This document shows, piece after piece, positions 26,363 through 29,401 of a stretch of DNA of 64,000 nucleotides. Source of the DNA: an uncultured Pelagibacteraceae bacterium. GTDB lineage: Bacteria; Pseudomonadota; Alphaproteobacteria; Pelagibacterales; Pelagibacteraceae. The position numbers and the translations under genes were made by a program. Position 1 is the stretch's first letter. Every line of letters begins with the position of its first letter. Where the stretch lies: positions 44,205 through 108,204 of the forward strand of contig CACMOQ010000004.1 in the NCBI GenBank assembly GCA_902615445.1, given 5' to 3'. The notes below the pieces were generated by a model that saw only the letters and a list, made by a program, of their open reading frames with translations, made no database searches and was not told the DNA's origin.

Positions 26363-27637
26363 TTAAAATTGTTCAGACTCAGTTGAACCATCCATTGCAG
26401 TAGTCGAACTCTTTCCACTGCTAATCGTATTAGAAACAGCATCAAAGTAAGAAGTACCAACTTCTCTTTGATGTTTGACACTTGTGTAACCATCTTTTTC
26501 ACGAGCAAATTCTTGTTCTTGAATTTTTGAATAAGCAGACATACCTTCTTTTTTATATTTTTCTGCAAGCTCAAAAATTGCAATATTTTGAGTGTGGAAT
26601 CCAGCAAGAGTAATAAATTGGAATTTATAACCCATAGCACTAATTTCTTTTTGAAAAGAAGCAATTTCTGAATCTGACAAGTGCTTTTTCCAATTAAACG
26701 ATGGTGAACAATTATATGCTAAAAGTTTACCAGGAAACTTTTCATGTATGGCATCTGCAAATTTTTTTGCTTCTTGCAAGTTTGGGGTAGCAGTTTCACA
26801 CCAGATTAAATCTGAATATGGTGCATAAGCTAATCCTCGAGAGATTGCTTGCTCAATTCCAGATTTAACATAATAAAATCCTTCTGGCGATCTTTCACCG
26901 GTCATAAAAGGTTTATCATTATCATCATGATCATTAGTAATAAGTTTTGCAGCATTAGCGTCTGTTCTTGCTAATATAATAAGAGGAACATCAGCAATAT
27001 CTGCGGCTAATCTAGCAGCTTTTAAATTTTTAATCATAGTGCTTGTTGGTACAAGTACTTTTCCACCCATATGACCACATTTTTTTTCACTTGCTAATTG
27101 ATCTTCAAAGTGAACACCTGCAACCCCAGCTTTAATAAATTTTTTTGATAATTCAAATACATTTAAAGGTCCTCCAAAACCTGCTTCACCATCAGCTATA
27201 ATTGGAAGCATGTAATCTATTCTCTTTTCTTTTTTCATGTCTCCATCTAGAAGTTCCATATGTTGAATTTGATCAGCTCGAATTAATGCATTATTCATTG
27301 ACTCTACTAATTTAGGAGCACTATCATAAGGATATAATGATTGATCTGGGTACATTTCACCAGCACTGTTTGCATCGGCAGCAACTTGCCATCCACTTAA
27401 ATAGATTGCCTTTAAACCTGCCTTAGCATGTTGAACAGCGTGGTTACCTGACAAAGATCCTAAAGTGTTAACATAATTTTCTGTATTTAGAAGCTTCCAT
27501 AATTTAACAGATTGTTGTCTGCATAAAGAGTATTCTATTTTAATTGAGCCCCTCAGCCTTTCAACTTCTTGTGGAGTGTAGTCCCTTTTTATTCCTGCAA
27601 ATCTTTTTAAGTCATACGAAATATTTTCTGCACTCAT
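26363..27637 (-). CDS. aceA: Isocitrate lyase
   Basis: [71 protein letters not shown]. Confidence 0.96.
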
Positions 27638-27697: not shown

Positions 27698-27859
27698 TTA
27701 ATTCGAGTCTCTTGTAGAGTCGTTTAAATCGTTCATTCCACTAGAACCCCAATCACAATGATCATCTCTCATGTAAATCCCTCTTCTATTATGTCGAGCA
27801 AGATCCTCATGTCTTATAATTTGAGCTTCATTTTCAGTGTTTTTTAGTTTTTCGTCCAT
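27698..27859 (-). CDS. Candidate 53-aa protein (MDEKLKNTENEAQIIRHEDLARHNRRGIYMRDDHCDWGSSGMNDLNDSTRDSN) upstream of aceA
   Basis: Uninterrupted ATG-TAA frame on the aceA strand; absent from the ORF track because it is under 60 aa; no strong SD. Confidence 0.45.
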   Translation of the reverse strand: MDEKLKNTENEAQIIRHEDLARHNRRGIYMRDDHCDWGSSGMNDLNDSTRDSN

Positions 27860-27969
27860 GTAAATCTTATAATTTACAGGATTTACAAAATCTACAAAAA
27901 AGTGTAAAAGTATTGTAAATGATAGAAAAAAATTGTAAAAATAAATTTACAAAATTTACAAATGGTAAA
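27859..27969. promoter_or_regulatory. Array of TTTACA/TGTAAA half-sites between aceA side and ScfR/RamB-like gene
   Basis: Exact hexamers begin at 27859, 27873, 27882, 27903, 27914, 27934, 27946, 27955; variants at 27891 (TCTACA) and 27964 (GGTAAA). Confidence 0.65.
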
Positions 27970-29401
27970 TATGAGTCAAATTAATTTAAAAATTGGTCCA
28001 AAAATTAAGGCTTTTAGAAGACAACTTGGTCTTCAGGCCAACAAATTAGCTGAAGAATTAAATATTTCCCCTAGTTATTTAAATTTGATCGAGGGGGGAA
28101 AAAGGAAAATAGATGGAGATTTACTATTAAAAATTTGTGAAAAACTAAATATTGAGCTTTCTCAGCTTACTACAAAAACTGACTTAAATTTAGAAAACAC
28201 TTTGTCTGAAATTCTAGATGATGAATTATTTGAGGATTTAGACATTTTAGGACCAGAGGTAAAAGATCTTGTTGGTACAAATCCAAAAATAGGAAAGGCA
28301 ATAGTTAGATTGGGGGATATCCTTAAAAAGAAAGATCACGAACTTGTAAACAAAATAGAGAAAATATCTGGGAAGATTGTAGATAATAGAAAAAATTCTT
28401 TCCCGGGAGAGGTTATATCAGATTTTTTACAAGAAAATAAAAATTATTTCCCAAAACTAGAAGATTTTGCGAATAAGGTTTTTGATAAAGTTCAAAAAAA
28501 CAATCGAACAAGATATATAGCACTTTGTGAGTACTTAAACTCAGAATATAATATAAAAGTGAAAGACGTTATACCTGAGGAAAATAAACCGTTTTCTAAG
28601 ATTTTTAACAAAAATAAAAAAGAGCTTTTGTTAAGTGATTATAGTTCTTTAGAGACAAAAAAACTTCATGCAGCTGCTCAGATAGCTCAAGAGGGTGCAA
28701 TTAAAGAAATAGAGGAATACTTAAAAAAATTTACTTTTCCATCTGAAGAATCAAAAAAATTGACTAAAGTAGCTTTACTAAACTATTGTGGTGCAGCAAT
28801 TCTGATGCCATATAAACAGTTCCATTCTCAATGTAAAAAACTTAAATATGATTTAGAGCTATTACAAAATACTTTTGCAACTTCTTTTGAACAAGTAGCG
28901 CATAGAGTTACTTGTCTTCAAGATCCAAAATTACCTGGTATTCCATTTCATTTTCTGAGGGTAGATATGGCTGGAAATATTTCTAAAAGATTCTCTTTAT
29001 CAGGAATTGAAATTCCAAGGTATGGTGGAGCGTGTCCTAGATGGAATGTTTATTCAGCATTAACTAGACCAGGTGTAATTCAAGCAGCTGTTAGTAAAAT
29101 GAGTAATGGGGAAAAATACGTTTGTATTGCCAGGACCGTCGAAAAAGGTATCGGTAGATTTGGTCAATCAAAAAGTATTCTATCAATTGGCCTTGGATGT
29201 GAAGCAAAATATGCAAAAGATTTTATTTACACTGAAAATATAAACATTAACGATAAATCTACCGAAATACCAATAGGTGTATCATGTAGAACATGCGATA
29301 GATTAGACTGTTCCCAAAGAGCTTTTCCTCCTTTACATAAAAAATTTGATGTTGATATTAATTCGAGAGGTGTATCAGTCTATGTTGGAGATAAAAGTTA
29401 A
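27962..29401 (+). CDS. XRE/ScfR-type transcriptional regulator (RamB-like, short-chain fatty acyl regulator family); start may be the ATG at 27971
   Basis: N-terminal HTH LGLQANKLAEELNISPSYLNLIEGGKRK; C-terminal SCRTCDRLDCSQRAFPP domain. Confidence 0.85.
   Translation: MVNMSQINLKIGPKIKAFRRQLGLQANKLAEELNISPSYLNLIEGGKRKIDGDLLLKICEKLNIELSQLTTKTDLNLENTLSEILDDELFEDLDILGPEVKDLVGTNPKIGKAIVRLGDILKKKDHELVNKIEKISGKIVDNRKNSFPGEVISDFLQENKNYFPKLEDFANKVFDKVQKNNRTRYIALCEYLNSEYNIKVKDVIPEENKPFSKIFNKNKKELLLSDYSSLETKKLHAAAQIAQEGAIKEIEEYLKKFTFPSEESKKLTKVALLNYCGAAILMPYKQFHSQCKKLKYDLELLQNTFATSFEQVAHRVTCLQDPKLPGIPFHFLRVDMAGNISKRFSLSGIEIPRYGGACPRWNVYSALTRPGVIQAAVSKMSNGEKYVCIARTVEKGIGRFGQSKSILSIGLGCEAKYAKDFIYTENININDKSTEIPIGVSCRTCDRLDCSQRAFPPLHKKFDVDINSRGVSVYVGDKS

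Follow-up and report, generated by a model that had tools for sequence, protein, structure and literature searches.

A rigid seven-box TTTACA array between aceA and a ScfR-family regulator gene in Pelagibacter, a probable two-sided operator

Beside the isocitrate lyase gene aceA in a member of the Pelagibacteraceae, the short word TTTACA and its complement TGTAAA recur at a density that raises three questions: whether the cluster is a genuine element, which protein is likely to read it, and which genes that protein would control. We have analysed the cluster within a window of 64 kb (the window, hereafter, is this whole stretch of DNA) and across related genomes.

Boxes, spacing and conservation

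We find eight exact copies of TTTACA or TGTAAA within 102 bp (27859-27960), starting at 27859(-), 27873(+), 27882(+), 27903(-), 27914(-), 27934(-), 27946(+) and 27955(+). The most that any 102 bp held in 200 first-order Markov simulations of the 64-kb window was four, against the eight observed, and 20,000 simulations with the composition of the 136-bp region itself gave at most five. Across the whole window TTTACA is not enriched (89 observed vs 94 expected). The dense array of eight exact copies reported in a preliminary description is thus confirmed, far above simulation, as are its 9-bp-period tandems, to which a degenerate TCTACA at 27891 adds a third 9-bp step. The features of the locus are as follows.

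26363-27637, minus strand: aceA, isocitrate lyase (NF011645, 724.8 bits vs a cutoff of 562)
27698-27859, minus strand: conserved small ORF of 53 aa; C-terminal motif GIYMRDDHCDWGSSGM, nearly invariant
27859-27864, minus strand: box A, facultative, sharing bases with the small ORF's start codon; 92/104 loci
27866-27871, minus strand: TATAAG, resembling a -10 element, for small ORF and aceA; start predicted at the A of the ORF's ATG
27873-27878, plus strand: box B1; TTTACA in 100/104 loci, TTTACT in 4/104
27882-27887, plus strand: box B2, TTTACA, 9 bp past B1; 102/104
27891-27896, plus strand: box B3, degenerate TCTACA, the third 9-bp step; TCTACA, TCTATA, TCTATT or TCTACT in most loci
27903-27908, minus strand: extra TGTAAA copy, outside the conserved array; 10/104
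27914-27919, minus strand: box C, TGTAAA on the plus strand; 103/104
27934-27939, minus strand: box D, TGTAAA on the plus strand, 20 bp past C; 104/104
27946-27951, plus strand: box E, TTTACA, 12 bp past D; 102/104
27955-27960, plus strand: box F, 9 bp past E; TTTACA in 84/104, TTTACT in 20/104
27946-27960, plus strand: boxes E and F together; E-F, TTTACAAAATTTACAAA, is the sole exact 17-bp double box genome-wide
27971-29401, plus strand: ScfR-family (RamB-like) regulator with HTH, Peptidase_M78-like and ScfR C-terminal domains

The array had been placed between aceA and the regulator gene; divergent genes do flank it, but the 53-aa ORF separates it from aceA. The earlier treatment of all eight copies as a single array stands for C, D and E, present in 102-104 of 104 loci, and fails for the copy at 27903, found in 10. 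Seven boxes make up one array: B1-B2-B3 with a 9-bp period, C, D, and E-F with a 9-bp period. Box A is absent from several of the 24 more diverse congeners.

These counts come from 104 Pelagibacteraceae loci, comprising 24 congeneric loci and 80 taken from genome contigs; as some of the contig loci are close relatives, the set is not one of independent loci, and the same pattern of conservation is seen in the 24 species-level congeners alone. The preliminary description had named a scrambled or absent array in close relatives as the result that would speak against it, and we find the array retained in all 104 loci. The spacing from C to D (20 bp), D to E (12 bp) and E to F (9 bp) is fixed in every one of them, and the distance from B1 to C measures 41 bp in 99 of them, the other 5 having 42 bp. 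The spacer sequences within the array drift while their lengths stay; the distance separating the small ORF from aceA, in contrast, varies widely, with 30 values between 26 and 155 bp.

On the minus strand, 27859-27887 reads TGTAAA-N3-TGTAAA-N8-TTTACA and 27934-27960 reads TGTAAA-N3-TGTAAA-N6-TTTACA, such that each half of the array is a tandem pair of boxes with an inverted one after it, and the two halves resemble a duplicated module. We also note that other genera of the family (L235-L250) retain TTTACA boxes upstream of the regulator gene in varying orientation and number; in one example TGTAAA-N3-TGTAAA adjoins the ATG in place of TTTACA-N3-TTTACA, an instance of operator turnover.

The inverted boxes D and E might be thought to act in RNA, as a hairpin in the ramB leader (TTGTAAA-N6-TTTACAA) serving translation control or as a thermosensor, and a 7-bp stem is indeed predicted for the D-E consensus. 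However, among 20 sequences no pair has changed on both sides and a change in the outermost base breaks its pair, folding is not clearly better than that of shuffled sequences (z -1.28), the region has no Rfam match to a hairpin or riboswitch, and the reversal of box orientation in other genera of the family also argues against a hairpin. We therefore regard an RNA element as very unlikely, and treat the boxes below as an operator.

Genes on either side of the array

The small ORF is present in all 104 loci and differs among them mostly at the third codon position (0.289, vs 0.144 and 0.121 at the other two); it has no match in Pfam or NCBIfam. Other genera of the family have more divergent versions, in which the C-terminal motif is GVYVKEDDQDWGSSGM. 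The ORF is probably cotranscribed with aceA. Six bases of the minus strand separate TATAAG (27871-27866) from the A that opens the small ORF's start codon, which would fit a leaderless transcript. The TTATAA adjoining B1 is 94-100% conserved per base across loci, and the start of the small ORF lies 13 bp from B1 in 93 of 100 loci. Boxes B1-B3 span roughly -14 to -39 of this predicted leftward promoter, a stretch in which a good -35 hexamer is absent.

TTTACA shares five of six bases with the -35 hexamer TTGACA. Some of the words could accordingly be core promoter elements that mark several promoters, for example D as a -35 and C as a -10 reading leftward; a promoter scanner does pair D (TTTACA) with C (TACAAT) at a minus-strand distance of 16 bp, and the D-C spacing is invariant. 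Against this, promoter-like matches are no commoner than in shuffled sequence (3 vs 2.3), the -10 would in most loci be TACAAG, without the key T, the 9-bp tandems are incompatible with -35/-10 pairing, and other Alphaproteobacteria, some of them GC-richer, carry these words ahead of their ScfR genes. We consider it quite unlikely that promoter elements explain the words, and turn to the regulator as the candidate reader.

That the neighbouring gene encodes a ScfR/RamB-like regulator, as first proposed, is borne out by its match to PF09856 (E 2.3e-58; 197 bits vs a cutoff of 24), with HTH_3 at 44.9 bits and Peptidase_M78 at 38.9 bits. The gene is divergent from aceA, with the small ORF alone between them. 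Its product scores 361.2 bits against NF038139, the Corynebacterium-type RamB equivalog, below the cutoff of 700, and is ~32-37% identical to the aceA-linked ScfR proteins of its class. Two in-frame ATGs are present, at 27962 and 27971, the second of which fits the start in nearly all relatives with a single HTH. Its alignment with PrpR of Mycobacterium tuberculosis (Mtb; 6CZ6) extends over 400 residues (E 9.8e-62), and the four cysteines that in PrpR hold a [4Fe-4S] cluster (PMC6765138) are all conserved. These ligands comprise a C-x2-C-x4-C motif and a GAF-domain cysteine, with CRTCDRLDC and GGACPRW aligning to PrpR, and the cysteine motif is found in 24 of 24 congeners.

The regulator is not of one form throughout the genus. 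Seven of the 24 congeners (L011, L014, L015, L021, L022, L023 and L024) encode a protein of ~563 aa in which two complete but divergent HTH domains stand in tandem, the recognition region being intact in each. Among the N-terminal copies, six group as a single clade with support of 100/99, and the remaining one, from L014, resembles them in sequence. The main parts of these proteins split into two groups, and there has accordingly been loss or recombination since. An AlphaFold model of a tandem-HTH protein is poor overall (mean pLDDT 50.9), with both HTH regions helical and of better confidence and a low-confidence linker between them. We considered whether the tandem HTH is linked to an altered operator and rejected this, the box spacing being the same with both forms of the regulator.

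Relation to known ScfR sites, and occurrence across genomes

Two characterised ScfR-family systems provide the closest comparisons. The 17-bp site of Mtb PrpR, TTTGCAAA-n-TTTGCgAA, consists of two 8-bp boxes one base apart (PMC6765138). The PrpR and Pelagibacter systems share the 9-bp box period, the regulator domains and the Fe-S cysteines; they differ in the central bases of the box (TTTGCAAA vs TTTACAAA/TTTGTAAA here), in the target pathway and in the number of boxes, which is much larger in Pelagibacter. A likeness in gene arrangement is seen in the class-2 RamB operator of Paracoccus denitrificans, where the ScfR gene is likewise divergent from glyoxylate-cycle genes, and whose boxes TGACAAACCTTACA and TGACAATACTGACT lie 18 bp apart (PMC10370305, from oligos 26, 46 and 47). 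Each Paracoccus box is TKACA-N4-TKACW, a 9-bp direct repeat, and TKACA half-boxes in 9-bp direct repeats recur here in B1-B2 and E-F. On its other strand E-F reads TGTAAATTTTGTAA, which agrees at 11 of 14 positions with TGTAAGGTTTGTCA, the reverse complement of the first Paracoccus box, and in both organisms the site adjoins the ramB start codon. The overall layouts are different: whereas Paracoccus has two double boxes 18 bp apart, those of Pelagibacter start 73 bp apart and there is no second double box at a 32-bp pitch; instead, a double or triple box lies on the aceA side and a double box on the regulator side, with the single inverted boxes C and D between. The class-1 RamB of Corynebacterium glutamicum is likewise a ScfR regulator, with a role in acetate metabolism.

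The word is also found beyond these systems. In the 150 bp upstream of ScfR genes at 19 sampled alphaproteobacterial loci, TTTACA/TGTAAA occurs 39 times vs 3.6 expected and 9-bp pairs occur 9 times vs 0.14 expected, and in nine other sampled Alphaproteobacteria a full-length aceA is divergent from a ScfR gene. To judge by sequence, the element is a class-2 RamB-type box that appears to have been elaborated into a rigid seven-box array in Pelagibacter. The rigid seven-box layout is a newer aspect of this locus, as is the congener lineage whose regulator carries two tandem HTH domains.

The 9-bp phasing had been read in the preliminary description as a sign of filament-like occupancy, in which the tandems would seed a cooperative protein filament across the whole array. 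Box B does offer three tandem steps, and the distance between the left and right blocks is near-constant. A filament is nevertheless unneeded, because the PrpR site and the Paracoccus RamB boxes share the 9-bp pitch: it is the ordinary period of a ScfR double box, and here there are two short tandems only, each ending after two or three boxes. Nor do the box centres fall significantly on one helical face when compared with random placement of the blocks (R 0.71, p 0.075). We give the filament very little credence, and retain discrete boxes read by a ScfR protein.

If the array belongs to the adjacent regulator, its distribution should bear on how many targets that regulator has. Searching 61 genomes with a profile of C-F gives one strong site (E ≤ 4e-7) in each of 26, always at the regulator locus. 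The remaining matches are background: family f2, like congeners without aceA and the regulator, gives nothing better than E 0.015; the best off-locus site in a relative (G016:C5, E 1.7e-4) lies within a gene. The array does not occur in the tested genomes that lack aceA and the regulator. Congeners checked that are without the regulator are also without a true aceA, as are the seven genomes tested of a second family; the exception is G002, in which aceA lies at a contig end 83 bp long, so that its neighbour is out of view. We note that aceA and the regulator come and go together (G009, G010, G018, G021, G022, G028 and the family f2 genomes), and that genomes without the regulator have distant isocitrate-lyase-like paralogues or none.

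Within the genome itself, the exact 17-bp double box TTTACAAANTTTACAAA occurs once (zero mismatches), and no three-box cluster TGTAAA..TGTAAA..TTTACA with gaps of ≤28 bp is found elsewhere. TTTACA-N3-TTTACA has five matches genome-wide, two at the array and three within coding genes. Allowing ≤2 mismatches, the 17-bp double box has 50 matches vs 25 for a reversed control; of ten other double-box loci inspected, eight lie in coding frames and two are overlapping windows on one intergenic stretch of contig 2. A genome scan for TTTACA clusters near acetate and propionate genes had been suggested; scanning puts the array and the exact double box only here, and the array, double-box, three-box and profile searches accordingly give no sign of a wider acetate/propionate regulon. 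The genes under the operator would seem to be the small ORF and aceA to its left and the regulator gene to its right.

The same distribution bears on whether the array is owned by a different regulator, for instance an iron regulator of the Fur or Irr type. In strain HTCC1062, iron limitation was accompanied by parallel increases of 1.58-fold for aceA (SAR11_1240; p 0.091) and 1.60-fold for SAR11_1242 (p 0.054; PMC2864753), which are small and of marginal significance, and SAR11_1242, two loci from aceA and from gene order only taken to be the ScfR gene, is higher in light (PMC3090418). The iron and light responses of SAR11_1242 (PMC2864753, PMC3090418) would fit an iron regulator, and an earlier search for Fur boxes with relaxed criteria reported motif sequences ahead of seven genes, SAR11_1242 and SAR11_0964 among them (PMC3090418). 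But the operator is single in each genome, travels with the ScfR gene and aceA and is found nowhere else in the genome, and the word is a class-2 RamB box rather than a GATAAT-type repeat. Ownership by an iron regulator is very unlikely, and the ScfR protein remains the favoured reader.

A two-sided operator and its implications

Taken as a whole, the array is probably best explained as a two-sided operator of the adjacent ScfR-family (RamB-like) regulator. The multi-site autoregulated operator of the preliminary description remains the best reading, because the array is strongly conserved, holds several sites and abuts the start of the regulator gene: C-F border or overlap it, and this right block would mediate autoregulation at the start codon. 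The left block, B1-B2-B3, would lie on the leftward promoter of the small ORF and aceA, over its spacer and -35 region. A single box, TTTRYAAA, would be read by one HTH, and two boxes 9 bp apart would form the standard ScfR double box. Because characterised ScfR proteins are tetramers (PMC10370305 for Paracoccus RamB), the four rigid boxes C-F may suit one tetramer, with the left block occupied by a second complex.

We further infer the binding of both blocks by the regulator, the tetramer assignment, the sign of regulation and the ligand. The resting regulator would most likely hold both promoters down, and binding of an acyl-CoA, loss of the [4Fe-4S] cluster, or both, would alter the oligomer such that the small ORF-aceA unit and the regulator gene rise together. 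The parallel if marginal increases of aceA and SAR11_1242 under iron limitation in HTCC1062 would agree with such joint control. The resting-repression step may be wrong, since Paracoccus RamB, for which a repressing tetramer and an activating dimer have been proposed, and Mtb PrpR are both activators in vivo. Given the protein family, the acyl-CoA-sensitive switch first suggested for this array is plausible, and the array would be a more elaborate form of an established switch governing acetyl-CoA use.

It is conceivable, if rather unlikely, that one tandem-HTH chain reads a 9-bp double box alone, giving eight HTHs per tetramer for seven boxes, and that a single complex switches both promoters under joint control by acyl-CoA and Fe-S. 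If that is true, the operator would be a natural test of direct-repeat reading by ScfR proteins and would reveal a direct link from iron to the glyoxylate shunt in SAR11.

SAR11 bacteria are the ocean's most abundant heterotrophs, with few transcription factors and no routine genetics, and they seldom offer a well-defined operator whose regulator can be named. The natural occurrence of single-HTH and double-HTH regulators on the same operator layout permits a clean test of how ScfR proteins read DNA. The combination of [4Fe-4S] ligands, an acyl-CoA-type domain and a single target site makes this system a candidate route from iron and carbon status to the glyoxylate shunt.
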